A stretch of DNA of 37,398 bases from Chloroflexota bacterium (GTDB lineage: Bacteria > Chloroflexota > Anaerolineae > Promineifilales > Promineifilaceae). Made by a program: the position numbers and the translations under genes. Of this stretch, positions 3,753 to 37,398 are shown piece by piece. The first letter of the stretch is position 1. Every line of letters begins with the position of its first letter. Where the stretch lies: contig JAKEFB010000063.1 in assembly GCA_022616275.1 (NCBI GenBank), positions 1 through 37,398 on the forward strand, given 5' to 3'. Below the pieces are notes generated by a model that was not told the DNA's origin, searched no databases, and saw nothing but the letters and a program-made list of their open reading frames with translations.

Positions 3753-4205
3753 ATGAAAGAGGATAATGAAGTGTCTGAAGCTGTGATGGTTTCTAAAGTT
3801 AAACACCCGGTGCGGGAAATCCCGTTTTTACTGCGGGTGATCTGGTTTTTTGTCCTGGGCTGGGAACTAGCCGGGGCCTGGATTTTAATTGCCTGGGCGC
3901 TGAATGCGACGATTATTGGGTTGCCGCTGGGGCTGTGGATGATTGACCGGGTGCCGCAGGTGTTGACGTTGAAGGCCCGGCCGGGGGCCTGGGTGGTGGA
4001 CCTGACGAGCGGCCGGGCGCGCTTTATGGCCGTGCGGCAACCGTCGTGGCTGATCCGGCTGGCGTACTTTGTCGTTATCGGCTGGTGGTTCAGCCTGATC
4101 TGGGCGGCCGTGGCCTGGGTCCTGTGCGCGACGATCATCGGCCTGCCGTTTGGCGTGTTGATGCTGCACGCGCTGCCGGCGGTGACGACGTTGCAGCGTG
4201 GGTAG
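3753..4205 (+). CDS. YccF-family inner-membrane protein with duplicated domain
   Basis: A 150-residue protein starting at ATG 3753, with AAGGA about ten bases upstream. It contains two copies of a YccF-like unit. Each has a hydrophobic segment followed by a characteristic glycine/proline turn: ATIIGLPLGLWMIDRVPQVLTL at residues ~50-72 (shown here in two parts, ATIIGLPLG and PQVLTL) and ATIIGLPFGVLMLHALPAVT at ~126-145. The second half also has a Trp-rich membrane segment (VIGWWFSLIWAAVAW). YccF proteins are integral membrane proteins of unknown function; the duplication is normal for the family. The stop codon lies inside a 28-bp palindrome shared with the convergent dehydrogenase gene. No partner is suggested by context. 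Confidence 0.85.
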   Translation: MKEDNEVSEAVMVSKVKHPVREIPFLLRVIWFFVLGWELAGAWILIAWALNATIIGLPLGLWMIDRVPQVLTLKARPGAWVVDLTSGRARFMAVRQPSWLIRLAYFVVIGWWFSLIWAAVAWVLCATIIGLPFGVLMLHALPAVTTLQRG

Positions 4206-4229
4206 GGGCACGATGCATCGTGCCCCTAC
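4202..4229. repeat. 28-bp perfect palindrome spanning two convergent stop codons
   Basis: GTAGGGGCACGATG at 4202-4215 is followed directly by its exact reverse complement at 4216-4229. The TAG at 4203-4205 stops the YccF gene. The stop of the minus-strand dehydrogenase (CTA at 4229-4231) begins at the palindrome's other end. It could act as a two-way terminator stem but has no T-tract. Confidence 0.85.
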
Positions 4230-7888: not shown

Positions 7889-8980
7889 TTACAGTTCGGC
7901 GCAGGCCAGCTCCTCGTAGGCACTGACCAGGCAGGCCATTTTCGGCTGCCAATAGGCCGGGGACGAGCCGGCCGTCTGGTTCCAGATTGGGTCAAAAATC
8001 ATGTAGGCGATCATCAGGCGGTAGTCACGACGTAATTCTTCCCAGGTATAAGCGGTTAGGCCGTGGGCCTGCAACTGCTGGTGGTAGCGGCGCAGCAGCC
8101 GCTCCTCGTGCTGTTGCCGCTGGGCCGGGGTCCAGAAGGTGGCCAACAGGTAGACCAGGTCGTAGGCGCCGAAGTTGGCACTGACGTCCTGGAAGTCAAC
8201 CAGGTAGGTCGGGCCGTTACCAGGAGGAAGCGGGCATAGAAATTGGTTGAAGTAGCAGTCGCCATTGGTCAGGGTCAGGTGGCGCCGGCCGGCCAGCCGG
8301 GGGGCCAGGTAACGTTCCCACAACTGCGGCAGGCGGGCGAGGGCCTGTTGGTATAGTTGCCGCCAACCGGCCGGCAGTCGCCCGCCTGCGGCGGCGACGA
8401 ACTGCTGCCACTCTTGCTGCCGCCGGGCAACGTGACGCTCGTGGTGGGCCTGGTCGCTGTACCACCAGCGAAGTTCGGTGACGTCCGGTACGTGGCCCAG
8501 CAAGGGATGGTCCCACCAGAAGGCATGGAAGTGGGCCAGGGCGTCTATCATTCCGTCCAGATGTGAGCCGGCCGGCACGCCTTCCAGGGCCAGAAGTTGA
8601 CGGCGGGTGACGGGTGCGGCGTGGGTGGCCGACAGGTCGGCCAGCAGGCAGCAGGAGAGGCCGCTGGCCGGGTCGTAGGCGGCGGCGTAACAGGGGACCA
8701 CGGCCGGCAGCGGCCGGGGCAGGGTGGCCGCCAACTGGTAGAAGTGGGCCTCGCGGCGGCCGGCGTGGTCGTGGTTGATTTTCAGCAGCAAGCGGCACGG
8801 GGCGGCGGCCGGCGCGCCAGCCGAGTAACTCACTTCCAGGTGGGTGATGGCCGAGTTAAAGGCGTCGTTGGGGTGTTGCCGTAACGCCGTCACTTCACCG
8901 GCCGGCAGGATGCCGGCCGTGGATAGGGTGTGGGTGAGCCAGGTGGGGGTGGCCTGGCCGGCCGTGGTGATCAGTTCCAT
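7889..8980 (-). CDS. APH-fold small-molecule kinase (phosphotransferase family)
   Basis: A 363-residue protein from the ATG at 8980; a longer frame to 9043 would run into the divergent gene's start. The kinase-like order is a nucleotide-loop region with LLLKINHD (the ATP-contacting Lys), a hinge (GLSCCLLADLS), the catalytic loop LTNGDCYFNQFL at residues ~250-262, and the metal-binding YLVDFQDVSANFGAYDL. This is the pattern of aminoglycoside/choline/ecdysteroid-kinase-like proteins. The usual HGD of the catalytic loop is NGD, while the catalytic Asp and the later Asn are kept. Substrate cannot be predicted; antibiotic resistance is not implied. A TATACT box lies nine bases before the ATG. Confidence 0.8.
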   Translation of the reverse strand: MELITTAGQATPTWLTHTLSTAGILPAGEVTALRQHPNDAFNSAITHLEVSYSAGAPAAAPCRLLLKINHDHAGRREAHFYQLAATLPRPLPAVVPCYAAAYDPASGLSCCLLADLSATHAAPVTRRQLLALEGVPAGSHLDGMIDALAHFHAFWWDHPLLGHVPDVTELRWWYSDQAHHERHVARRQQEWQQFVAAAGGRLPAGWRQLYQQALARLPQLWERYLAPRLAGRRHLTLTNGDCYFNQFLCPLPPGNGPTYLVDFQDVSANFGAYDLVYLLATFWTPAQRQQHEERLLRRYHQQLQAHGLTAYTWEELRRDYRLMIAYMIFDPIWNQTAGSSPAYWQPKMACLVSAYEELACAEL

Positions 8981-22463: not shown

Positions 22464-23156
22464 ATGTTATGTTCCTCTGGAGTTCGCCGTTTCCTGGTCG
22501 TTGTTGCCTTCACGGTTATCCTGATAGCTAACTTCACCCTGGCGAGTTCTGCTCAAGGACCTGATAACGGTGTGCCTAGCGACCGTCCGGCCGGCGCGGC
22601 CCAGGAAACTGTCCTGGAAGAAGAAGTTAAGTTGCCAGGTGAGGAGGCCGGAAGTACGGCCACGGCCGGCAACGCTGACCCTGATGTGGTTGAGGAAGAG
22701 GTAGTCAATGGCAGCGAGGCGCCAGGCCAGACCTTTTACAAGCGCTGGGCGGCCGAAACGTTTGTTCCTTACCACTACCTCAACGAGTGGGCCAATATGG
22801 GCAGTGGTTGCTTCCGCCGCCTCAACGGCTACATATGGACCACCGACGTCCAGTTGCCTGAGGGGGCGATAATAGATTATTTTCGGGTATATTATTACGA
22901 TACAGACAGCGCCTATAATGTGGAAGCAACTCTGCTTCGGTATGACAGTACCGGTTCCAGCGAGTTGCTGGCCTCAGCCAGCGGCTCCGGCACACCCGGC
23001 TGGAGTTCGGCGGGGAGCGGTTTATTTTCACATTCTGTTGATAACCTGAACTGGTCCTACGCCGTCAATATGTCTTTTACCGGGGGGACGACCGCGGCTT
23101 TGCGTGCTTGCGCGGTGCGCATCCGCTACCAGTATGACCCGGCCACCCTCCAGTAG
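22464..23156 (+). CDS. Secreted protein of unknown function
   Basis: A 230-residue protein; ATG 22464 has AAGGAG seven bases upstream. A signal peptide occupies residues ~1-30 (RRFLVVVAFTVILIANFTLA then SSAQG). An acidic, low-complexity linker follows (ETVLEEEVKLPGEEAG, DPDVVEEEVVNG). Residues ~90-225 form a compact beta-rich domain with paired cysteines (GSGCFRRLNGYIW and LRACAVRIRY), a tyrosine-rich strand (DYFRVYYYDTDSAYNVEATL) and NWSYAVNMSFTGG. This looks like an extracellular jelly-roll-type domain, but no family is recognised. It may share a transcript with the upstream membrane peptide. Its stop codon falls in a 29-bp palindrome, followed by a terminator. Confidence 0.7.
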   Translation: MLCSSGVRRFLVVVAFTVILIANFTLASSAQGPDNGVPSDRPAGAAQETVLEEEVKLPGEEAGSTATAGNADPDVVEEEVVNGSEAPGQTFYKRWAAETFVPYHYLNEWANMGSGCFRRLNGYIWTTDVQLPEGAIIDYFRVYYYDTDSAYNVEATLLRYDSTGSSELLASASGSGTPGWSSAGSGLFSHSVDNLNWSYAVNMSFTGGTTAALRACAVRIRYQYDPATLQ

Positions 23157-23181
23157 AGACGTTGCATTGCAACGTCTCTAC
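23153..23181. repeat. 29-bp palindrome (14+1+14) carrying the stop codon
   Basis: GTAGAGACGTTGCA (23153-23166), one T, then the exact complement (23168-23181). The TAG at 23154-23156 is the stop of the secreted-protein gene. Confidence 0.85.
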
Positions 23182-25522: not shown

Positions 25523-27954
25523 CCGTTGCCAGCCCCGCCCGCAACGCCGTTGTTGGACAGGGGTAGAAGAACAGAAAAAGTATTTCCCCCCGCTTCACGG
25601 TTCATCCAGGCCCGGCCGCCATGAGCGGCGATCAGGTTCAGGGCTGAGGACAAACGTTCACCTGTTCCGGCCGCGTGGGCCAGGCTAACTTCCCTGGATT
25701 GGCGGTGAGAATCCAGGACAAGAAAGCGGATGTCAGAGTCCGGTTTGCCACTGTCGGTGACGGCCAGGTGTAGGAAGCCAAAGCTTTCCGGCGCGCCGTT
25801 CTGGGCCGGTTCCTGGATGGCGTCGTGATGGGCGCTGACTACCAGGCGGCCGCCTTGGGCCGAGACCCAACAGGCGTTGTCCAGCAGCGTGGTCATAATT
25901 TGCTGAATGGCGTTGCCGTCGGAAAGGACCGGCGGCAGTTGTTCGTCTATTTTCAGGTCGAGGCGCAGGTTTTTTTCCCGGAGCCGGTCACTGACGGCGG
26001 TGACGGCCGATTCGATGGCCAGGCGCACGTCAACCGGTGTCTTGTACGTCTGCGGCTGTTCCGGACCGGTCAATTGGATCAACTGGTCGAGTAAGGCGAT
26101 CATGTGCTCGACGTTGGCTTTTATCCGCCGCATCAAGCCAATTTGCTTGGCGCTCAAGATGCCCATAGATTCGCTCAACAACAGATCTGTATAACCGGCC
26201 AGAGAGGTGAGTGGTGTGCGCAGTTCCTGAGCCAGGCCCATGACCAGGGGAGCGGCGGTAGACGGCTCTTTTTTGTTAAGCTCCATTTCCAGTTGATGGA
26301 TGCGGCTATGGGCCTCTTCCAGCTCACCTGAGTAGCGGGTGATGGCCAGAGTGACCCATTCGGGGCTCAGGCCGCCTTCGCCAGCCGCGGCCATAGCCAT
26401 AGCATCTTCGGCCTCAATAAGAGATTCACGTAGCGCCTTAATTTCTTCTTCCAGCGCAGCCACTTTATCGTCCCGGCTTAACTGTTCCATTTCCTCCAGC
26501 GTAGCCGCTAGAGACCTGGTCCGCTGGCTTTCGGCCAGGAGTTGAGCCTCGGAGCGCTGCCAGCGGCCGGTGAGCAGCTCAACTTCGGCCAGGGCACGGT
26601 TCCGCTCTTCTTCCAGGGCAATCAAGCGGCCGGAGACGACCGCTTCGCTGATGGGCACGGTCAGGGCCGGGGTGGTCAGGGCGTCCTGGTAGCGCCGGTT
26701 GTTGTAAAGCGCCTGGGCAATGTAGCCGGCCAGGGCGTGGCTTAGCAGCTTACTTTCGGTTGTCCAGCGCCCCTGCCCGGCCGGGCCGGCCAGCAGCAAG
26801 ACGCCAAGCTCGACGTCTGGGGCGACCAGGGGTTCGATGAGGAGCGCTCCCAGGCTGGAGAGTCCTAATTCGCGATAGAAATCTTCCAACTGGCGCGCTC
26901 CCAGGCCGTCCGGGATCAATTCCACTCGCTGCCGCTGCTGCATGGCCAGCCGGAAGGCCGGCCAGTCGCTGAGGGCCAGCGCCCAGCTTTGCCGTACGGC
27001 AAGGTCGTTGGCCCGCTGGTCGTGGCTGCTCTGGAGCCGCAGGCTGGTCACCTGCAGCGTGGCCGGGTCGTCGGGCAAGAGGGCCGCGAGGGCGACGAAA
27101 GCGACGTCTGTAAGCCGGGCGGCCAAAATCAGGGATTGGTTGATCGTCTGGCGGCTATCAGGAGAATCTATTACCTGGCGAGAGAGATGGAGTTGTTGGA
27201 TGGTCCGCTCCACCGGCGGCTGGCTGTCCCGCTGGGTTGCCAGTAGCTGGGCCAGGTTGTGGCGGTAGGCCAGGGCGGCCAGAAGGGGGAGGGCGATGAG
27301 GTTGCCGAGGCGCACCCAATAAGAGATGTCTGTCCCGGTGGGGATGATTTCGGGGCTGTTCCAGAAATGGGCCAGGTGGGCCAGAAAGAGAATAGCCAGG
27401 ACGGCCAGGCGCAAGGTCCATTGCTGTTGCCGGCCGAGGAGCACCAGTAAGCTGCCTAAGCCGAGAAGGGTCATCTGGAAAATGCCCCAGACGGCGGCCT
27501 GGGGAAAGCTGTTGTATCCTTGCTGGTCGCGACCACTCGCCACCTGGGCGGCCCAGTCGCGGGCGTCAAAGGCGAACATGATGCCGATGGATAAAAGGAT
27601 AAAGAGGAGGATTACACTGCCCAGGCGGGGGAAGCCGGGTATGGGAGGGGCCAGGGCCCAGACAAACAGGGCGGCCGTAGCCGCATCAATAGCCTGTTCC
27701 AGCGGGGGGAGGACGCTGTTGGCCTCTGCCTGGTTGCCGGCGGAGAGGACGACGAAGACGACGATGAGACGATTGAAGAGGACCCCGGCGGCGGCCCAGG
27801 CCAGCCGGCCGGCCAACTCGTCGGCCGGGTCGCGCCGCCGCTGCCACAGGGCCAGACCCAGAATGGCAAAAACAGCCCACAGGGTCAGCACGTGGTAGAC
27901 AATGCTGCCGGGCGCTTCGCTGAGGAGCTGGACGAGCTGTTGCAAAAAGGACAT
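25519..27954 (-). CDS. Membrane histidine-kinase-like protein lacking the phospho-accepting His
   Basis: An 811-residue protein from ATG 27954; a GTG two codons earlier is also possible and neither has a Shine-Dalgarno. The N-terminal ~230 residues contain about six membrane helices. A GAF-like domain spans ~270-440, a coiled coil ~450-560, then the dimerisation domain and an ATPase domain. The H-box reads GLAQELRTPLTSLAGY: Gln576 replaces the usual His. The N-box is LLDNACW. The G1 box is VTDSGKPDSD, with its second Gly missing; G2 is GTGERLSSALNL. It may be a pseudokinase or signal through another route. It is translationally coupled to the LysM protein. Confidence 0.85.
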   Translation of the reverse strand: MSFLQQLVQLLSEAPGSIVYHVLTLWAVFAILGLALWQRRRDPADELAGRLAWAAAGVLFNRLIVVFVVLSAGNQAEANSVLPPLEQAIDAATAALFVWALAPPIPGFPRLGSVILLFILLSIGIMFAFDARDWAAQVASGRDQQGYNSFPQAAVWGIFQMTLLGLGSLLVLLGRQQQWTLRLAVLAILFLAHLAHFWNSPEIIPTGTDISYWVRLGNLIALPLLAALAYRHNLAQLLATQRDSQPPVERTIQQLHLSRQVIDSPDSRQTINQSLILAARLTDVAFVALAALLPDDPATLQVTSLRLQSSHDQRANDLAVRQSWALALSDWPAFRLAMQQRQRVELIPDGLGARQLEDFYRELGLSSLGALLIEPLVAPDVELGVLLLAGPAGQGRWTTESKLLSHALAGYIAQALYNNRRYQDALTTPALTVPISEAVVSGRLIALEEERNRALAEVELLTGRWQRSEAQLLAESQRTRSLAATLEEMEQLSRDDKVAALEEEIKALRESLIEAEDAMAMAAAGEGGLSPEWVTLAITRYSGELEEAHSRIHQLEMELNKKEPSTAAPLVMGLAQELRTPLTSLAGYTDLLLSESMGILSAKQIGLMRRIKANVEHMIALLDQLIQLTGPEQPQTYKTPVDVRLAIESAVTAVSDRLREKNLRLDLKIDEQLPPVLSDGNAIQQIMTTLLDNACWVSAQGGRLVVSAHHDAIQEPAQNGAPESFGFLHLAVTDSGKPDSDIRFLVLDSHRQSREVSLAHAAGTGERLSSALNLIAAHGGRAWMNREAGGNTFSVLLPLSNNGVAGGAGNG

Positions 27955-28185
27955 GCTCACGCGCAGGTAAACAAGCCTGCCAGGCTCTCCGAGACGGCCG
28001 GAGCCGCTTCAGGAGAGACAAGCTAAGGTGATTATAGCATAACAGGAATGGGTTGCCGTGAATATTGTGTAAAGGTGCGCGCCCGCCTGTTGATAGGTGG
28101 CAATGCTGACAGCGACCTTCCGGCCGCCTTTTTCGCCAGAGTGGGCCGGCTTGAGGGGGCAGCATTGGCAGAACTGTGATAAAAT

Positions 28186-28306
28186 AAAAAAGACGCCCCG
28201 GCGCTGCTTGCAACAGCCCAGGGCGACGGCCAGCGGAGCGGCTGGCGAGAGGTAGTATAGCAGATTTCCGGCCGCTCACGCCTTAGCATGAGCGGCCTTT
28301 TTGTTT
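28186..28306 (+). ncRNA. Candidate structured small RNA ending in a terminator
   Basis: After an AT-rich start (TAAAAT at 28180-28185 as a possible -10, without a good -35), there are two GC-rich hairpins. One is around GCTG-CTTGCAA-CAGC (about 28207-28221); the other is GCCAG/CTGGC (about 28231-28248). The terminator follows at 28270-28306. The neighbouring gene to the left runs the other way, so this plus-strand terminator must end some other transcript. No known RNA family was recognised. Confidence 0.3.
28270..28306 (+). terminator. Strong Rho-independent terminator
   Basis: GGCCGCTCA and TGAGCGGCC (28270-28278, 28289-28297) form a perfect 9-bp stem with a 10-nt loop, followed by TTTTTGTTT. 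Confidence 0.85.
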
Positions 28307-28307
28307 G

Positions 28308-28940
28308 ATGAGTCAGGCAATGTTTGAACAGCAACAAATCGAAATATCCTCAAAAAAATGTAGCCGGCCTCAATTTGATGGACTTATGCGGGATTACTTT
28401 AGCCGGGGTCAATCGCCAGTTGCTCTATGGGTTAGACCCGTTCACGATTCCGGCCCTGCCATGCCTTATGGCGAGCCTGTTAGTCGGGGTGTTCCCATAA
28501 CTTCCCCGCATACCCCCGTAGCAATCAAAGAGTGGTTCATAGTGAGTGAGGCAACCGGCGGTAATATTCCGCTAGGCTGTATCAAGCGAAATGCGTTTCC
28601 TACCGGCCTGGAGATAATAGTCATTCCCTCAACCTTCGTGGGCGCGGCGGGATGCCCCGCTATCCAGGAGTTGCAAAAGCTGGTTGACGCTATTGTGTCC
28701 GTAATGCGGCGTTTTGGATTTGAAGTGAGGGAGGAAGGTCAAGCGCCCACCAAAGGCAAACAGGGGGCACGTCCCCGGTCGAGAGCCGAGAGAGTAGCCG
28801 CCCGCCAGGAGTGGGGGAACCTTGACAGAGATAACCACCCGATTACATGGGCGGAATGGTCAGAAGAAAAGTGGGGGGCACAAGCCGACGGTAGCCTTGT
28901 CGTGCCAAAGTCTACGTTCTTCGGTTGGCCTACAGAGTAA
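28308..28940 (+). CDS. Unknown protein at the left end of the mobile element
   Basis: A 210-residue frame from ATG 28308. The start is uncertain: it sits directly after the terminator T-tract, has no Shine-Dalgarno, and ATGs at 28320 and 28384 are alternatives. The central region looks like a folded alpha/beta protein (VAIKEWFIVSEATGGNIPLG, TGLEIIVIPSTFVG, LQKLVDAIVSVMRRFGFEV). The C-terminal part is basic then acidic/Trp-rich (RPRSRAERVAARQEWG; ITWAEWSEEKWG; STFFGW). No family was recognised. It is followed by its own terminator, so it is probably a separate transcription unit from the rest of the element. Confidence 0.5.
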   Translation: MSQAMFEQQQIEISSKKCSRPQFDGLMRDYFSRGQSPVALWVRPVHDSGPAMPYGEPVSRGVPITSPHTPVAIKEWFIVSEATGGNIPLGCIKRNAFPTGLEIIVIPSTFVGAAGCPAIQELQKLVDAIVSVMRRFGFEVREEGQAPTKGKQGARPRSRAERVAARQEWGNLDRDNHPITWAEWSEEKWGAQADGSLVVPKSTFFGWPTE

Positions 28941-29000
28941 AACTCGTACTAAAAGCCGTACTGTTTTCGGACTAATTTCGGACTACCACCTTTAATAATA

Positions 29001-29027
29001 AGGGCCATAGAGATATGGCCCTTTTTT
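29001..29027 (+). terminator. Rho-independent terminator
   Basis: AGGGCCATA-GAGA-TATGGCCCT stem-loop (29001-29022) followed by TTTTT, between the unknown gene and the small regulator. Confidence 0.85.
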
Positions 29028-29040
29028 GTTGGAGGTGCGT

Positions 29041-29241
29041 ATGCCTACTTTAAACATAGTCCTTGACGAACGGACCAGGGACGCCTTACGCGAGTTTGCC
29101 CGGCGGGAAGTACGCGACCCACGTGGCCAGGCTATCGTGATTATCCGCAAAGAGCTGGAACGGCAGGGTTATCTATCGGCCGAACCGCAATCACAACCGG
29201 CGCGGGCCGTCGAGGGGGCGAGCAATGCTAACGGCAATTGA
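29041..29241 (+). CDS. Small ribbon-helix-helix-like DNA-binding protein
   Basis: A 66-residue protein. ATG 29041 is chosen because GGAGG (29031-29035) is correctly spaced; an upstream TTG falls in the terminator. The N-terminal half fits the Arc/MetJ pattern: a beta strand (PTLNIVLDERT), helix 1 (RDALREFARREV) and helix 2 after RDPRGQ (AIVIIRKELERQGYL). The C-terminus is disordered (EPQSQPARAVEG). Such proteins bind operators as dimers and often control phage or plasmid genes, so it may regulate the downstream replication operon. The stop overlaps the start region of the next frame. Confidence 0.65.
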   Translation: MPTLNIVLDERTRDALREFARREVRDPRGQAIVIIRKELERQGYLSAEPQSQPARAVEGASNANGN

Positions 29242-29602
29242 CCTTTCGCCAGACCCGGCCGCTTTGGCTCTCAGTCGTTGTTATTCCCTGCTACTACGGG
29301 CAGCAGAAAAACACGACCAGCAACAGCCACCGGCCGCAGACCGGGCCGCAATTGAGCCAGAACTGCCCGAAAGCACGCAACAGGGGGTGGAACGCCCTGG
29401 GGGGCAACCAGGGCGGCGACAGGGGCAAGCGGGCGGGCGTTGTCTGTCAATTCCCATTCTACCACAACCGGCCGGTCAATTCCAGTATATCGCGGTGACG
29501 GCCGGCCGGTGGGTGAGATTATCAACGGCGTGTTGCGAAAGACGGCCCGGCGCGCCCACCAACTCCAACGGCCGGCGGCGTGGGCCTGGGATAGAGAAAT
29601 AA
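29225..29602 (+). CDS. Possible small element gene overlapping its neighbours
   Basis: A 125-codon frame starting with ATG 29225 inside the end of the regulator gene, with a purine-rich GAGGGGG upstream. The first ~60 residues look protein-like (IDLSPDPAALALSRCYSLLL, then Gln/Pro/Ala-rich). The rest is arginine/glycine-rich and overlaps the better-looking frame at 29440-29820. Either the real protein is short and extends into a non-conserved tail, or a frameshift joined it to the next frame. No family recognised. Confidence 0.35.
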   Translation: MLTAIDLSPDPAALALSRCYSLLLRAAEKHDQQQPPAADRAAIEPELPESTQQGVERPGGQPGRRQGQAGGRCLSIPILPQPAGQFQYIAVTAGRWVRLSTACCERRPGAPTNSNGRRRGPGIEK

Positions 29603-29820
29603 TTGACCGGGCAGAGGCGGCCGGGGCAACGTGGACGGAAATTCACGACCTGGACGGCGGCCGGGTTTACAGAGTGGCCTTGTCTGACTTCCGGCGGTAT
29701 TGCATCCGCGTCAATCGTGGTTTTGGTGAGCAACTTGCCTTACCCCTGCCATTTTGGCAGGTGCGCCGGCCGGGCGAAAAAATGGTAGAGCAGTTGTCAC
29801 GTTTCGAGGTACGGCCGTGA
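29440..29820 (+). CDS. Unknown small phage-type protein
   Basis: A 126-residue frame beginning at a TTG (29440); no ATG or GTG start exists before the conserved-looking region and the ribosome binding site is weak. The protein looks folded: SIPVYRGDGRPVGEIIN, an Arg-rich helix (LRKTARRAHQLQRP), EAAGATWTEIHDLDGGRVY, and an aromatic-rich end (NRGFGEQLALPLPFW). Codon use and the GTGA overlap with the primase gene (29817-29820) support it as a real gene of the replication operon. No function is known to me. Confidence 0.55.
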   Translation: MSVNSHSTTTGRSIPVYRGDGRPVGEIINGVLRKTARRAHQLQRPAAWAWDREIIDRAEAAGATWTEIHDLDGGRVYRVALSDFRRYCIRVNRGFGEQLALPLPFWQVRRPGEKMVEQLSRFEVRP

Positions 29821-30941
29821 AAGACCTTTACCCGTTTGGCCAGAAGTTGCACCAATGGGGGGCGGCCGTGACGGCTATACAGCCCAAAAGGAAAAGCCCA
29901 CTACATGAGTGGGCGCATTGGCAGAGCCGGCCGCAAACGGCCGAAGAGCTGGCCAGCCTACCCTGGGAACAGGCGGCCGCCGTGGGTATTGTCAACGGCA
30001 GCGGCGGCTTTCGCGTTTTTGACGTTGACCCCCAAAAGGACGCCCAGGGCCGGCCGCTTTACAAAGTGCCGGAGCAGGTTCTTATCGCGGCCTTGCGAGC
30101 CGTTGGCCTGCCGGACGATTACCAATGGAGCTATGCCAGTGGCAGCGGTGCGGGGTGGGGCTTTATCGTGCGCTGTACCGATAACTTGCCGGCCGGGTGG
30201 CCGGCCGATAAGGGCATTTTCAAAGGGACGTCGGCAAACGGCTATCAGTATGACCATTTAGAATTGCGCTGGAGCAGCGGCCAGACCGTCATCATGGGCA
30301 GTCACCCGGACGGGCCGGGCTACTGCTGGCGACGTGGTGAACCGCCTTTCGTCCCCCCGGCCGAAGTAACGGCCGGACAGGTAGAAAGGGGATTCCTGGC
30401 TATTGCAGTCCCCAAACATGAGCAACCGGCCGGGAGTGAGCACATTACGAGGCCGGAGACGACGCGGCCGGCCAGGAAGGTATCAGGTGGTCCTGATACG
30501 ACCGTCGAGGAAATACGCGGGCGCTTTGACCTGCTGGCTTATGCAAGGCGGCATTTTCCGGGCGAAGTTAGAGAGGAAAAGGGCGAGTATCGGATATTGG
30601 GCAACGGCGGCCTTTTGATTAAGCCTGATACCGGGAAATGGTTCTGCTTCGCTGAGGATCTAGGGGGTGACTGCTTTGACCTGGTAGGCTACTGCTTCTA
30701 TGGCGCAACCTGGTTTGGTAGCAAAAAGGACGGTGAAAAGTGGGGCCAGGTGTTACAGGACGCGGCCGCTTTTACCGGCGTGGCATTGCCCGACAATTCG
30801 CCGGCTTTCCACGTGGGGGATGTGGTTACGGCCGTCATCAACGGCGTGCCCAAAGCAGTGGGCCGCGTTATGGCCGTTAAGTGGCTGCCGCCAGAAGGTG
30901 GCCAATGGCGGCCGTATTATGAACTAGAGAGGCTGCCATGA
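29817..30941 (+). CDS. Prim-Pol (bifunctional primase/polymerase N-terminal domain) protein
   Basis: A 374-residue protein from GTG 29817, chosen because GAGGT lies six bases upstream and the start overlaps the previous stop. Residues ~5-200 are the Prim-Pol domain: KRKSPLHEWAHWQ, AAVGIVNGSGGFRVFDVDP (the DxD metal pair at 69-71), SYASGSGAGWGFIVRC and YDHLELRWSSGQTVIMGSH. It makes primers for replication of phages and plasmids. Residues ~250-320 (RFDLLAYARRHFPG, KGEYRILGNGGLLI, KWFCFAEDLGGDCFDLVGY) resemble the CHC2 zinc-finger fold of primases, but without the Cys/His ligands. The stop overlaps the helicase start as ATGA, giving a fused-function replication module. Confidence 0.85.
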   Translation: MKDLYPFGQKLHQWGAAVTAIQPKRKSPLHEWAHWQSRPQTAEELASLPWEQAAAVGIVNGSGGFRVFDVDPQKDAQGRPLYKVPEQVLIAALRAVGLPDDYQWSYASGSGAGWGFIVRCTDNLPAGWPADKGIFKGTSANGYQYDHLELRWSSGQTVIMGSHPDGPGYCWRRGEPPFVPPAEVTAGQVERGFLAIAVPKHEQPAGSEHITRPETTRPARKVSGGPDTTVEEIRGRFDLLAYARRHFPGEVREEKGEYRILGNGGLLIKPDTGKWFCFAEDLGGDCFDLVGYCFYGATWFGSKKDGEKWGQVLQDAAAFTGVALPDNSPAFHVGDVVTAVINGVPKAVGRVMAVKWLPPEGGQWRPYYELERLP

Positions 30942-32623
30942 CCCTGTACCACGAATCACAACTACAGCCAGGAATACAGGAAATACCGGCGGCCGTGTTG
31001 CCGAGCGCCAACGGCCGCGGCCCGGCCGGCGCTTCCCCGGCCGGAAACGGGCCAGACCTGGCTACAATGTTAGCGCAGGCAGAGCAATTGACCGACCAGC
31101 AGGCAGGGCTACAGCTCGCCCAACAGGCGGCGCACCTTGGCGCGGCGGACTGGGCAATTTTGCGGGATGCAATCAACAAAGCAAGCGGCGCAACCAAAAG
31201 CGACCTGGGAGCGGTGTACAGAGAGGCCAGGAAAGCGGCAAAGCCGGCGCGGCAAGTGGCGCCGGCTGAGGCAAGCGCCGGCTTTAGGTTGGACGACACC
31301 GGCAACGCCGAAAGGTTTGCGCACCAGCACGGCGTAAGCGTTCGCTACGTCCACACCTGGGGGTGCTGGCTGGTTTGTAACGGCCGTTTTTGGGAAAAAG
31401 ATGTAATCGGCCGCGTTGAACGCCTGGCAAAACAGACGGCGCGAGGTATTTACCAGGAAGCAGCGGCGGCGGCTAAGCAGGGCAACGATGAGCTGGCCGC
31501 CAACCTAAGCAAGTGGGCGCGCGAATCTGGCAGCGCAGCAAAACGCGCTGCCATGCTATCGCTGGCGCAATCAGAGGAGCAAATAGCTATAACCCACGAA
31601 TGCCTGGACAATGACCCGCTTTTGGTAAACTGTGAAAACGGGACGCTGGATCTCAGAACTGGCGTGCTACGGCCGCATAGGCGGGACGACATGATAACTA
31701 AATGCCTGCCTGTGGCCTATGACCCGGCGGCAACGTGCCCGCTTTTCCTGGCGTTCCTGGCGCGTGTTTTGCCCGACGCGGGTAATCGTATTTTTTTACA
31801 GAAGGCGGCCGGTGTTTCCCTTTCCGGTGTCGTTATCCAGTTTTTATTTTTTCTCTACGGGCGTGGGGCAAACGGTAAGTCAACGCTCATAGAGATTTTC
31901 CTTGCGCTACTTGGGGAGTATGCAGCAAAGACCGGCGCGGAAACGTTGCTCACCCAGGACAGGCGGGCAATTCCTAACGACGTGGCGGCTCTGGTTGGCA
32001 AACGGCTGGTTGTGGCCAGCGAATTGCCCGACGGCCGGCGACTGAACGAAGGGCAGGTGAAAGACCTGACCGGCGGCGACAGTGTTTCGGCGCGCTTTCT
32101 AAACCAGGAATTTTTCACCTTTAAGCCTGAATTCAAACTTTGGATGTACGGGAACCATAAGCCGGACATTACCGGCACGGACGACGGCATTTGGCGGCGT
32201 ATACGGCTTATCCCGTTCACGGTTCAGATACCAGAGACCGAGCAGGATACAAGCCTGCCTGAAAAGTTGCGCGCCGAGCTTCCCGGTATTCTAGCCTGGG
32301 CCGTCGAGGGCTGGAAGCTGTACCAGTTGGAAGGGTTAAGCCCGCCGGAGGCGGTTAGCAAGGCAACGGCCGCCTACCGGGCGGAAAGTGACCTGTTGGG
32401 CAAATTTTTGGAGGAATGCACCATTGAAAAGAACGGCGCGGAGACCAGGAGCAGCGCGCTACTGGACGCCTACAGGAAATATTCCGGCGATAACGAGATG
32501 ACGGCCGTCAGGTTTGCCAGGGCAATGACTGAGAAAGGGCACGAGAAGACAACGGCGACGGCCGGCCCGAATAAAGGCCGCGTGGTGTGGCCCGGAGTTG
32601 ATTATTGCACGTTGAAAAGGTAG
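30938..32623 (+). CDS. D5/P4-type superfamily 3 replicative helicase
   Basis: A 561-residue protein. Residues ~110-300 are a D5-N domain (HQHGVSVRYVHTWGCWLVCN; LLVNCENGTLDLRTGVLRPH; KCLPVAYDP). The AAA+ helicase core has Walker A GRGANGKST (308-316), VVASELPDGRRLNEGQVKDL, and KLWMYGNHKPDITGTDDGIW with RRIRLIPF (sensor and Arg finger). A C-terminal D5-type winged helix follows (LLDAYRKYSGDNEMTAVRF). These proteins unwind DNA at the origin for phage, satellite (P4) and plasmid replication, normally with a primase like the coupled upstream gene. The TAG stop is the first part of a large inverted repeat. Confidence 0.9.
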   Translation: MTLYHESQLQPGIQEIPAAVLPSANGRGPAGASPAGNGPDLATMLAQAEQLTDQQAGLQLAQQAAHLGAADWAILRDAINKASGATKSDLGAVYREARKAAKPARQVAPAEASAGFRLDDTGNAERFAHQHGVSVRYVHTWGCWLVCNGRFWEKDVIGRVERLAKQTARGIYQEAAAAAKQGNDELAANLSKWARESGSAAKRAAMLSLAQSEEQIAITHECLDNDPLLVNCENGTLDLRTGVLRPHRRDDMITKCLPVAYDPAATCPLFLAFLARVLPDAGNRIFLQKAAGVSLSGVVIQFLFFLYGRGANGKSTLIEIFLALLGEYAAKTGAETLLTQDRRAIPNDVAALVGKRLVVASELPDGRRLNEGQVKDLTGGDSVSARFLNQEFFTFKPEFKLWMYGNHKPDITGTDDGIWRRIRLIPFTVQIPETEQDTSLPEKLRAELPGILAWAVEGWKLYQLEGLSPPEAVSKATAAYRAESDLLGKFLEECTIEKNGAETRSSALLDAYRKYSGDNEMTAVRFARAMTEKGHEKTTATAGPNKGRVVWPGVDYCTLKR

Positions 32624-34017: not shown

Positions 34018-34482
34018 ATGGAGCATGGGATGGAAATGACCGACAACGCCGCCGGGCCTGCCCCGGCCGATGCTACCAAAACGAATCAGCGGCCGGTGAG
34101 CGAGGCGCAACTAGAGCAACGGCAGCAGGCGGCCGTTAAACACGGCATACACGCTTTTGAGGCGCGCGGGCCGCTGGCTCTGGACGACGGCCGGCTATCC
34201 CGTCTGGCCGAACTCCGGCAAATGGTCAGAAGCCACCCCGGCCGGATGGAATTACGGGAGGAGTTAACCGCCCGGACTGCCCTAATCGTTGACCTGGCCA
34301 TGAGCGAGCTAATCACCACCCACGAGGCCGGCAAATCTATTTGGGAATCGCCGGTTATCAAACGGGCCGGCACGTACCTGGCCGAGCTGCGGCGGCTTCT
34401 GGATTCATTTCCACCAGAGAAAAGCCAGGGCAGCGCGGCCGACATCATAGGGCAGATAATCGAGAATGGCCGCGATTCCTGA
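34018..34482 (+). CDS. Probable small terminase subunit
   Basis: A 154-residue frame from ATG 34018; ATGs at 34030 and 34036 are equally possible starts. The N-terminal part is flexible (AGPAPADATKTNQRP). Then come helices with KHGIHAFEARGPLALDDGR and LAELRQMVRSHPGRMELREE, and a C-terminal helix pair (KRAGTYLAELRRLLDSF, SAADIIGQIIE). Identification rests on its place directly before, and 17-bp overlap with, the large terminase, plus its size and the KHG-rich N-terminal pattern common in small terminases. It would recognise the packaging site. Confidence 0.6.
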   Translation: MEHGMEMTDNAAGPAPADATKTNQRPVSEAQLEQRQQAAVKHGIHAFEARGPLALDDGRLSRLAELRQMVRSHPGRMELREELTARTALIVDLAMSELITTHEAGKSIWESPVIKRAGTYLAELRRLLDSFPPEKSQGSAADIIGQIIENGRDS

Positions 34483-36001
34483 CATCGTAGCCTGGGCAGA
34501 GTCGCCGGCCGGCTTCTGCCTGAAAGAGACCAGGAAGCCTATCCGCCTGGCAAGCCACCAGCGGGATATTTTGCGCCATTGTTTCACGGCCGGGCCGGAC
34601 GGCCGGCTACCTTATGAGACCGTCGTCTACAGTTGCCCGAAAAAGAGCGGGAAAACGACGCTGGCCGCCCTGGCTACCCTTTACTTTGCCCTGTTCATTG
34701 AGCCAGAGGGCGGGGAAATTTACGTTTGCGCCAATGACCTGGAACAGTCCCAAGCCCGCGTTTACAGCGACGTGGCGACGGCCGTCCGGCTTAACCCGGT
34801 GCTGGCCGGCCGGACGACAGTCCAGACCAGGGTTACAGTCCTGGACAACGGCACGACCATCAACGCCCTGCCCAGTGACTACGCCGGCGCGGCCGGTAGC
34901 CGGCATGGGCTAACGGTGTGGGATGAGCTATGGGCCTACACGACAGAGAGCGCCCGGCGACTTTGGGACGAATTGACGCCCGTTCCAACCCGCCTCAATT
35001 CCATTCGCTTTATTGCCACCTACGCCGGCTTTCAAGGCGAGAGCGAACTTCTGGAAGAGCTACAGAAGCGCGGCCGGGCTGGGCAGGTGGTGGAAGAGCT
35101 GGCCCACATTGATAACGGCCGGGGCGAGCCTGCCTGCCGGGCGGCCGGGCGGACCTTTGTCTACTGGGACCACGAACTCAAGCCACATCCTGGCCTGACA
35201 ATCACGCCGGAAGCCTACCACGAGCAACAACGGCAGGACTTGCGGCCCACGGCCTTTACCCGCATTCACCTGAACGACTTTTCTACCAACGAGAGCCAGT
35301 TTGTCGAGCCTGAACAGTGGGCGGCCTGCTACGACCCGGCGCTTACCGCCTGGACGGCCGGGGACGGCCGTCGGCTAACCCTGGGGGCCGATGCTTCCAC
35401 GGCCCGCGATTTTACCGCCCTCGTGGGCTGTTGCCGGGGCAGTAGGGGCGGCGTTGACGTGGCCTATGTCAAGGTCTGGAAGCCACAGAAAAGCAACGGG
35501 CGCGGCAGGCCGACCATTGACCTGGATAAGACGATAGGGGCGGAAATTTTGAGCCTGCACAGGGCCGGGGCGGTCGTGGCCTGCTACTACGACCCGTACC
35601 AGCTTCACAGTATCGCCACGCGGTTACGGGCGGCCGGGGTGAAGATGATTGAGCTACCACAGACGAACGCCCGGATTGAGTGCGACCAGGCATTGTATGA
35701 TGCGATTATCGGCCGGACGCTGAGCCACTTTAACCACCCCGACTTAAACCAGGCCATAGCCAACGCCGTAGCCGTTGAGACGCCGCGCGGCTTCAGGCTG
35801 GCAAAGGAAAAGACCACCAGGAAGATTGACGCGGCCGTGGCTCTTTCAATGGGGGCGCAAGGGGTGAGAACGTCCGGCCCGGCCGCGGCCGGCGAAACGG
35901 CCGATATACCCCAGGAAAATTACATGACGCAAAGACCGGGCCACGCGGGCGGCCGGCTCTACGGCCGGGCCGGCAACGGGCTATGGCGGCGTAGGGGATA
36001 G
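34466..36001 (+). CDS. Phage large terminase subunit
   Basis: A 511-residue protein of normal length. The ATPase has Walker A CPKKSGKTTL (residues 58-66), Walker B LTVWDELW (Asp153-Glu154) and the coupling motif ATYAGFQGES (184-193). The nuclease shows the RNase H-like acids GADASTARDF (Asp309), CYYDPYQL (Asp376) and RKIDAAVALSM (Asp455). It resembles the HK97/terminase-1 type. It would cut concatemers and pump DNA into a prohead. No portal gene follows, whereas in phages portal normally comes next; here the integrase follows after 95 bp. Confidence 0.92.
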   Translation: MAAIPDIVAWAESPAGFCLKETRKPIRLASHQRDILRHCFTAGPDGRLPYETVVYSCPKKSGKTTLAALATLYFALFIEPEGGEIYVCANDLEQSQARVYSDVATAVRLNPVLAGRTTVQTRVTVLDNGTTINALPSDYAGAAGSRHGLTVWDELWAYTTESARRLWDELTPVPTRLNSIRFIATYAGFQGESELLEELQKRGRAGQVVEELAHIDNGRGEPACRAAGRTFVYWDHELKPHPGLTITPEAYHEQQRQDLRPTAFTRIHLNDFSTNESQFVEPEQWAACYDPALTAWTAGDGRRLTLGADASTARDFTALVGCCRGSRGGVDVAYVKVWKPQKSNGRGRPTIDLDKTIGAEILSLHRAGAVVACYYDPYQLHSIATRLRAAGVKMIELPQTNARIECDQALYDAIIGRTLSHFNHPDLNQAIANAVAVETPRGFRLAKEKTTRKIDAAVALSMGAQGVRTSGPAAAGETADIPQENYMTQRPGHAGGRLYGRAGNGLWRRRG

Positions 36002-36096: not shown

Positions 36097-37020
36097 ATGA
36101 CTAACCAGCTCGCAGTTTACCGGCCGGACGGCCTAGAGCGTATCGTCAACCTGGTGGCTGATTCTGTCACCAGCGCCAATAGTCGCCGGGCCTACGGCCG
36201 GGCGCTTAATGACTTCCTGGCCTGGTACGACGGGCAGGGGCGGCCGGGCCTCAGTAAAGCCACTGTCAACGCTTACAAGAGCTACCTCTTGGCCCAGGGC
36301 CTCAGTCCGGCCAGCGTCAACCAGGCCATGAGCGCCATTCGCAAGCTGGCGACGGAAGCGGCCGATAATGGGCTTCTGGCCCCCGAACTGGCCGCCGGTA
36401 TTGCCAGGGCGCAAGGGGTAAAAGCGGCCGGTGTGCGAGCGGGTAACTGGCTCTCAAGGCACGAGGCCCAGGCGCTATTAAACACCCCGGATGTATCAAC
36501 GCTTAAGGGGCTACGTGATAGGGCGATTCTGGCCGTCATGATTGGCGCGGGCCTGCGAGTATCAGAAGTGGCCGCCCTTGCCTTTGCCCACGTGCAGCAG
36601 CGTGAGGGCCGGTGGGTAATCGTTGACCTGGTGGGCAAGGGCAACCGGGTAAGAACCGTCCCCATGCCGGCCTGGGCCAAGCACGCCATAGACCAGTGGG
36701 CGGCCGCGGCTAAGGGGCTGTACGTTGGCCCGGTCTTCCGGCCGGTGAACAAGGCCGGCCGGGTGGACGGTGATGGTATGACCCCCCAGGCTATTTACTA
36801 CCTGGTGAAAGAGCAGGCAGCGGCGGCCGGCTTCGTGGCAATCGCCCCCCACGACTTACGCCGGACCTTTGCCAAGCTGGCCCACAAAGGCGGCGCGGCG
36901 CTAGACCAGATACAGCTTACCCTGGGCCATGCCTCGATTAAGACCACCGAACGATACTTAGGGGTAGAGCAGAACCTATCACAAGCGCCCTGTGACGTTT
37001 TGGGTATTGGCCTGAAGTAG
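36097..37020 (+). CDS. Tyrosine recombinase (integrase)
   Basis: A 307-residue protein; ATG 36097 with AAGGGG upstream. Residues ~10-100 form a SAM-like core-binding domain (SRRAYGRALNDFLAWYDGQG; SVNQAMSAIRKLATEA). The catalytic domain has all residues: Arg154 (GAGLRVSEV), Lys181 (GKGNRVRTVP), His252 and Arg255 (PHDLRRTFAKLA), His278 (LGHASIKTTE) and Tyr287 (RYLG). The size and the lack of an N-terminal arm-binding domain are more like XerC/D-type or transposon integrases than lambda integrase. It probably moves this element, and it has its own promoter and operator. No attachment core could be recognised by eye. Confidence 0.9.
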   Translation: MTNQLAVYRPDGLERIVNLVADSVTSANSRRAYGRALNDFLAWYDGQGRPGLSKATVNAYKSYLLAQGLSPASVNQAMSAIRKLATEAADNGLLAPELAAGIARAQGVKAAGVRAGNWLSRHEAQALLNTPDVSTLKGLRDRAILAVMIGAGLRVSEVAALAFAHVQQREGRWVIVDLVGKGNRVRTVPMPAWAKHAIDQWAAAAKGLYVGPVFRPVNKAGRVDGDGMTPQAIYYLVKEQAAAAGFVAIAPHDLRRTFAKLAHKGGAALDQIQLTLGHASIKTTERYLGVEQNLSQAPCDVLGIGLK

Positions 37021-37078
37021 CAACCCACGCGCCGCCTGAATCGTTGTAACGCAATCCAGGCCATTCTAGGGGCCTTAG

Positions 37079-37282
37079 AGGGCAAGTCTACGCCGAACGT
37101 CGGGGGGGCAACTGATTGAGGAAATGCAAGAGCGGGGGGAATTGGCCAGCCAGGGCGGGGATAGAAAATCAAAGTTCCATGATGGAACTTTGATTTTAGC
37201 CGACATTGGTATTGAACGTAAGCAATCCCACCGCTGGCAAAAGATAGCTTCTATTCCCCGCCCACGTGGGGTTCAAATATAA
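37079..37282 (+). pseudogene. Truncated phage/plasmid gene running into the CRISPR array
   Basis: An open frame without a good start encodes GQLIEEMQERGELASQGGDR (beginning near 37106), then DGTLILADIGIERKQSHRWQ and KIASIP, and then ends with RPRGVQI from CRISPR-repeat sequence. The motif series (AGxLLxEMxERGE, then LxDLGIxxxQSSRWQxxAxIP) is familiar from phage and plasmid proteins, often next to ParB-like or MT-A70 methyltransferase domains. Normally an EEEFE-type segment and a long protein follow IASIP. Both the N-terminus and everything after SIP are missing, so this is a relic. The only in-frame ATG is at 37124. Confidence 0.6.
37165..37197. repeat. 33-bp perfect palindrome (16+1+16)
   Basis: AAAATCAAAGTTCCAT, one G, then the exact complement. 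It lies in the reading frame of the relic gene. The outer A/T tracts would also allow it to work as a two-way terminator of integrase transcription. Confidence 0.8.
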
Positions 37283-37398
37283 CAATTTGTTATATTTGAA
37301 CTTGGTGGCTGGCCGCCCCCGCCCACGTGGGGTTAACACATAAGTTCACGGTTATCAGTAATGGTGTCCCTGGCCGCCCCCGCCCACGTGGGGTTAAC
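37248..37398 (-). CRISPR. CRISPR array, type I-E-like, trailer end (continues beyond window)
   Basis: Two identical 29-nt repeats at 37309-37337 and 37370-37398 and a partial copy at 37248-37276 give a strict 61-nt period with 32-nt spacers (37277-37308, 37338-37369). Read on the minus strand the repeat starts GTTAACCCCACGTGGGC and continues GGGGGCGGCCAG. Its CCCC (6-9) and GGGG (18-21) lie exactly where they do in type I-E repeats. This orientation makes the left copy the leader-distal one, which suits its decay: only its first ~21 bases (minus strand) are kept. Leader and cas genes should lie to the right. The repeat at the window edge ends exactly at the last base. Confidence 0.85.
37271..37301. 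repeat. 31-bp perfect palindrome across the last CRISPR repeat and spacer
   Basis: GTTCAAATATAACAA, one T, then the exact complement. Its first six bases belong to the degenerate repeat and the other 25 to the adjoining spacer. Confidence 0.85.

Follow-up and report, generated by a model that had tools for sequence, protein, structure and literature searches.

The right end of the window (the whole stretch of DNA that was analysed, 37,398 nucleotides, which is the complete contig C264 of a Chloroflexota genome) most likely carries a truncated, leaderless array of type I-E-like CRISPR repeats or an element-borne mini-array. The specific reading preferred here, at a probability of roughly 0.42, is that the contig closes on the broken edge of a short I-E-like array beside a scrap of a phage gene, the leader end of the array having been lost by recombination. 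Such an array would read rightward, show two spacers and have neither a leader nor a cas gene on its left side, where it would abut the scrap and then the integrase end of an integrated, satellite-like element. Junctions between elements and CRISPR loci show how arrays get lost, broken or carried by elements; the present basis is one short stretch at a contig end.

Three Direct Repeats at the Contig End

The contig ends inside the array, at the third of three direct repeats on the + strand, whose start-to-start distances are 61 and 61 bases: (i) copy 1, a variant (37248..37276); (ii) copy 2 (37309..37337); and (iii) copy 3, at the contig end itself (37370..37398). Between them lie two spacer-like inter-repeats of 32 bases each (37277..37308 and 37338..37369), which are alike at 11 of 32 positions. 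Copies 2 and 3 are identical over 29 bases, while copy 1 is 72% identical to the reference copy and matches copy 2 at 21 of 29 bases, a likeness equalled by 21 of 200,000 pairs drawn at random within the element region. As the sequence-only reading had it, 18 central bases are shared; this core, CCCCGCCCACGTGGGGTT, begins at 37256 (37256-37273 in copy 1), 37317 and 37378. A search allowing up to 3 mismatches locates the core three times in the window, whereas 100 shuffles average 0.09 occurrences and never reach three. Copy 1 departs from copies 2 and 3 on both flanks of the core. The stretch thus has the direct repeats and the unique, even-length spacers of a CRISPR array, at minimal copy number only, and its three copies set it apart from a solitary repeat unit or RNA anti-CRISPR, which has one. 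The case for a broken array edge is weakened by the low count, two exact copies plus one variant, and by their position where the contig stops.

Similarity to the Type I-E Repeats of Relatives

Type I-E arrays of relatives in the same bacterial family (L055, L056, and L058) are built of the repeat GTTTTCCCCACAC[A/C]CGTGGGG[G/A]TGAACC. The window shares with them a period of 61-62 bases, the hairpin core CCCCNCNCNCGTGGGG and repeats of about 28 bases. Gaps of 61 are the most frequent in L055 (73 of 134) and L056 (29 of 37) and gaps of 62 in L058 (3 of 5), and the window's 16-base core is equal to the relatives' at 14 positions in L055 and at 13 in L056 and L058. In contrast to the window, the relatives' repeats are near-uniform and are preceded by a gene read as cas2 plus a short leader, whereas the window lacks both and has other repeat flanks. 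In gapped comparisons with the relatives' repeat, the + strand scores of copies 1, 2, and 3 are 15, 13, and 13, and their - strand scores 10, 8, and 8; the three copies are not independent of one another, and all three + strand scores lie above the maximum of 12 found among 20,000 + strand stretches of the window. The exact period, the gapped scores above these controls and the equality of 13-14 of 16 core positions all favor the broken edge of an I-E-like array.

Ungapped comparisons are less one-sided. Copy 1 matches the relatives' repeat at 20 of 28 positions, the top of the window, and copy 2 at 18 of 28 (+) versus 17 of 28 (-), while copy 3 matches at 17 of its 26 bases (+) versus 17 of 28 (-). 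The preferred reading is weakened by the score of only 18 for copy 2 and its strand preference of 18 versus 17, as well as by the 51 places in the window, both strands counted, that reach 16 of 28, and the three unrelated places that score 19. Predicted folding, which favors the + strand for copy 1 (-10.0 vs. -8.2 kcal/mol) but the - strand for copy 2 (-10.4 on + vs. -11.9 kcal/mol), weakens it likewise. On these alignments the core and copy 1 are clearly I-E-like, the flanks of copies 2 and 3 less so.

In the relatives, cse1 is located upstream of the arrays, whose reading direction is that of the window copies' best gapped match. Because the gapped scores are higher on the + strand, the left side of the array would be its leader side, and the array would read from left to right, although for copies 2 and 3 the evidence is weak. 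The gapped similarity therefore does not support the view that copy 1 is the leader-distal repeat, nor does the ungapped match of copy 1, at 20 of 28 against 18 of 28 for copy 2, support the further proposal that it departs from the repeat type at the junction. Ahead of the first repeat, the relatives have a gene read as cas2 and a short stretch ending in AAGG; nothing like the pre-repeat sequence of three relatives, compared by eye, is present left of copy 1, which also favors a broken I-E edge.

The core has no further exact match in its own genome. Allowing one mismatch, a looser form gives five matches there (the three window copies, C166 and C164) versus three for a reversed control pattern. 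Exact matches are absent from 396 other genomes of the class, leaving the search for an intact array in relatives empty-handed, from the species genomes (0 for two patterns) and from viral contigs; with 3 mismatches, single matches occur in 9 of 198 other genomes and form no cluster. A 3-mismatch match on C130 sits in a locus read as an ABC transporter, and a supposed inverted repeat copy upstream was dropped because 202 of 1000 controls of the same geometry score as high.

Likewise, viral contigs contain no exact match to a 22-base part of inter-repeat 1 or a 23-base part of inter-repeat 2. The spacer-like part of a CreA/CreR-type guide would match a nearby promoter beside a PAM; when the + strand spacers were compared in 16 registers with the window, C166 and C175, the only 9-base seed match, besides that of a palindrome with itself, was at window position 8594 after CAG, in one register. 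Conversely, among the best 20 matches of 174 relatives' spacers to the window and the integrase loci, the longest are one of 20 bases at 95% identity and an exact one of 16 bases. The lack of a spacer target among these sequences, and of a relative in the state before the join, further weakens the preferred reading.

The Gene Fragment and the Junction

Between the integrase stop at 37020 and the contig end at 37398 lie a gene scrap and the repeats. The scrap (37103..37258, +) is a phage-type gene fragment of 52 codons with both ends missing, recognized by its frame and its likeness to phage proteins, and translates as GGQLIEEMQERGELASQGGDRKSKFHDGTLILADIGIERKQSHRWQKIASIP. The earlier observation that the frame runs on into the repeat was accurate: after ...HRWQKIASIP, the P codon of which is at 37256-37258, it continues as RPRGVQI to a TAA stop at 37280-37282, just past the repeat. 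Two phage proteins, XAI96810 and WAX24296, align with the peptide over their front part (scores 65 and 68; equalled by 0 of 2000 shuffles each, shuffle maximum 51). These have 57 and 71 residues ahead of the shared part and a long stretch after it, both of which are missing in the window; the front of the similarity sits in another frame of the window, and the last codons of the similarity are those with which the repeat core begins. The two proteins were picked via an assumed consensus, a search with which returned nothing in phages or plasmids at 0.01, and, at E 10, four phage records (0.06, 0.06, 5, and 9), two of which were opened, and one plasmid (4). Searches of Pfam and PHROGs (up to E 1) and of NCBIfam (up to E 10) assign the fragment to no family, and a longer piece matches one PHROG at E 0.25. 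With the caveat of how the two phage proteins were picked, the likeness of the predicted peptide to them supports the assignment of the scrap to a phage-type gene, as first suspected of this truncated, phage- or plasmid-like frame.

An intact counterpart of this gene was sought in relatives, as had been suggested, and no match was found in 248 other genomes of the class (E 0.01). None was found in phages at 0.01 or plasmids at 0.1 either, the search at E 10 giving six phage records and one plasmid, all weak. In viral contigs, none of 16 pattern matches was confirmed, and a degenerate DNA pattern for the end of the gene matched no contig. At the nucleotide level, blastn of 37021-37398 against phage and plasmid records gives nothing up to E 1.

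At the junction, the gene scrap has the bases TTCCCC in common with a normal I-E repeat. Recombination over this short shared stretch, where the fragment reads TATTCCCC and the normal I-E repeat TTTTCCCC (37252-37259), could have joined the gene fragment to a repeat with loss of the leader end, and the resulting array would be unable to take up spacers from its left side. The TTCCCC overlap, in this one example, is what a short-homology join would be expected to leave. Of the abrupt switch from repeat to gene described in the sequence-only reading, a junction near 37252-37258 fits, whereas copy 1 differs on both sides of the core and is not simply cut at one point. That the fragment ends at the repeat favors a broken I-E edge.

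A palindrome scan found two perfect palindromes with one-base centers flanking the junction, one with arms of 16 inside the gene fragment (37165..37197) and the other with arms of 15 running from the end of copy 1 into inter-repeat 1 (37271..37301). Two further palindromes in the window, at 4202-4229 and 23153-23181, have arms of 14.

The Integrated Element and the Possibility of a Mini-Array

Up to approximately 28 kb, the proteins scanned have a chromosomal look. Beyond that, an integrated element extends from ~28.3 kb (this left edge being a reading) to 37.0 kb, which agrees with the claim that a mobile element adjoins the CRISPR-like repeats. On the + strand it encodes: (i) a primase-polymerase (Prim-Pol; 29754..30941; Pfam PF09250, 6.2e-11); (ii) a D5-type primase-helicase (30938..32623; Pfam PF08706, 4.1e-35; PHROG 1156 DNA primase, 6.6e-126); (iii) a terminase large subunit (34466..36001; PHROG 9, 1.2e-55, with weak Pfam TerL domains); and (iv) a tyrosine recombinase/integrase (36097..37020; Pfam PF00589, 3.2e-23; PHROG 1, 3.8e-39), which scores 3.5e-41 against the XerD model TIGR02225, yet below that model's cut-off. 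No capsid or tail name appears among the 11 element frames (Pfam on all 11, PHROGs on 7), and because of this the element is called satellite-like, as a reading. Between 27800-29300 and 36900-37398, the longest exact match is 9 bases and no 25-base pair has 18 matches, so that neither the repeat nor an attachment core was found in a copy on the left. The kinase gene left of the element has a match at E 1e-60 in 44 of 53 family genomes, its own included. No empty site was found at the kinase loci of 14 relatives (three of them with <410 bases upstream), where the longest upstream frames differ; among the first 60 matches listed, these frames show likeness between some pairs only.

A leaderless mini-array carried by the mobile element itself, used with the host I-E Cascade against rivals, or acting as a mimic that ties up Cas proteins, is a possible but somewhat unlikely alternative. 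The repeats start 228 bases past the end of the integrase gene; however, no matching attachment core was found that would mark the element's right edge. The best 15 integrase relatives in relatives' genomes are 49-60% identical to the window's, and a common feature was not seen downstream of related integrases at the 18 loci read (one with 7 bases only). One of eight viral contigs with a related integrase, L024 (the same as L084, IMGVR_UViG_3300027823_000108), encodes an integrase 57% identical to the window's and bears a single palindrome that equals the L055 repeat over 23 bases and folds as a 15-pair hairpin (-32.1 kcal/mol). The remaining 18 of 19 related-integrase loci, on the other hand, have repeat scores of at most 11. 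Scanning with the relatives' repeat yielded 13 putatively viral contigs with one (six contigs), two (two), three (three), five (one), or 11 (one) exact copies. L084 alone among these has, in the stretch examined, an integrase gene related to that of the window. Against the mini-array, the window's own core has no exact match in viral contigs and its spacers have no exact target there.

Virus-borne mini-CRISPR arrays have been published, and the phage mini-arrays known from earlier work are stated to be without leaders (PMC6858448). Like such arrays, the window has few repeats, one to two spacers and no cas genes in sight, and adjoins mobile genes; unlike them, it has no target found and lies near an integrase as a candidate member of the element only (PMC6858448). 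Repeat-mimicking RNA anti-CRISPRs derived from solitary repeat units are also published (PMC10651486). They too are repeat mimics in mobile elements, of which the related element L024 has a single one, whereas the window has three spaced copies. A broader proposal is doubtful: that satellite-like integrative elements of one family, sharing this tyrosine recombinase, carry I-E repeat mimics (a solitary one in L024, a leaderless mini-array in the window) that would borrow or block the host I-E Cascade. If the repeats do belong to the element, the range of mini-arrays or repeat mimics would come to include a satellite-like integrative element of this host family.

Two observations in these contigs stand on their own. 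The palindrome of L024, at 2668-2701, is a single symmetric I-E repeat-like hairpin and a candidate solitary repeat unit. In addition, L077, L078, L080, and L083 each have 2-3 I-E repeats (L083 with one partial in addition) at a spacing of 61-62 and are candidate virus-borne I-E mini-arrays.

Other Readings of the Repeats

An ordinary array end, which would be read from right to left with its leader past the contig and with copy 1 as the degenerate last repeat, would need no breakpoint, and is unlikely. Mutations in repeats can gather leader-distally (PMC4869251), and the variant among the three is copy 1; in ungapped comparison the - strand suits copies 2 and 3 nearly as well as the + strand, and copy 2 folds better on it. 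The gapped similarity, however, points in the opposite direction for all three copies, copy 1 is the most I-E-like of them, and the similarity of the gene fragment reaches up to the core.

It is quite improbable that the repeats are not CRISPR at all, but are spaced GC-rich repeats serving the element, for instance as binding sites for the integrase or a replication protein. Their position after the integrase gene, the two perfect palindromes close by and the confinement of the core to this contig in the genomes searched would suit such a role, and chance can produce a pair of this geometry, as in the unrelated locus L064, where a 25-base repeat recurs at a spacing of 60. The exact I-E period and the I-E-like core argue against it, as does the finding that none of 19 related-integrase loci, within reach of their flanks, shows a repeat of 18 bases spaced by 55-70 (window copies, known arrays and C175, 15 loci in all, were excluded from this repeat-pair scan beforehand). 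An assembly artefact, in which the last ~150 bases were wrongly joined to the element, is very improbable: the contig does stop with the third copy, and the 8.53 Mb genome is in 309 contigs, but no direct evidence favors it.

Cas Genes Elsewhere in the Genome

The broken edge of an I-E-like array is also favored by the presence of a Cse1 operon in the same genome. The Cse1 gene is on C166, in an operon read as cas3, cse1, cse2, cas7, cas5, and cas6e that runs off the contig in cas6e, while the only Cas1 match is on C175, beside a different array of longer repeats. Because the C166 operon breaks off and the sole Cas1 is on C175, the main I-E array and its cas1-cas2 are either missing from the assembly or absent, and the window array could be a remnant of the genome's main I-E array. 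The C175 array (L049 1-255) has four copies at 71-72 spacing and stands at a contig end, beside the Cas1 gene and a gene read as cas2.

Degenerate repeats have been described in published CreA elements (PMC8501985). A CreA/CreR-like element lies on C166 (L047 4973-5140), between the genes read as cas3 and cse1 of the I-E operon. It consists of two degenerate I-E repeats 62 bases apart (20/28 and 21/28 to the relatives' repeat), with a T run after the second repeat and, by eye, a promoter-like TTGCCT-16-TATAAT in front. A score search of four relatives' cas loci gave no such degenerate repeat pair and one single match, in L057. The spacer-like part of the element matches L047:4984, beside AAG, at 25 of 33 bases, and the first 23 mismatch only at positions 6 and 12, which are bases left unpaired by Cascade. 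This target adjoins TTGACA-17-TACTAT, reading towards cse1.
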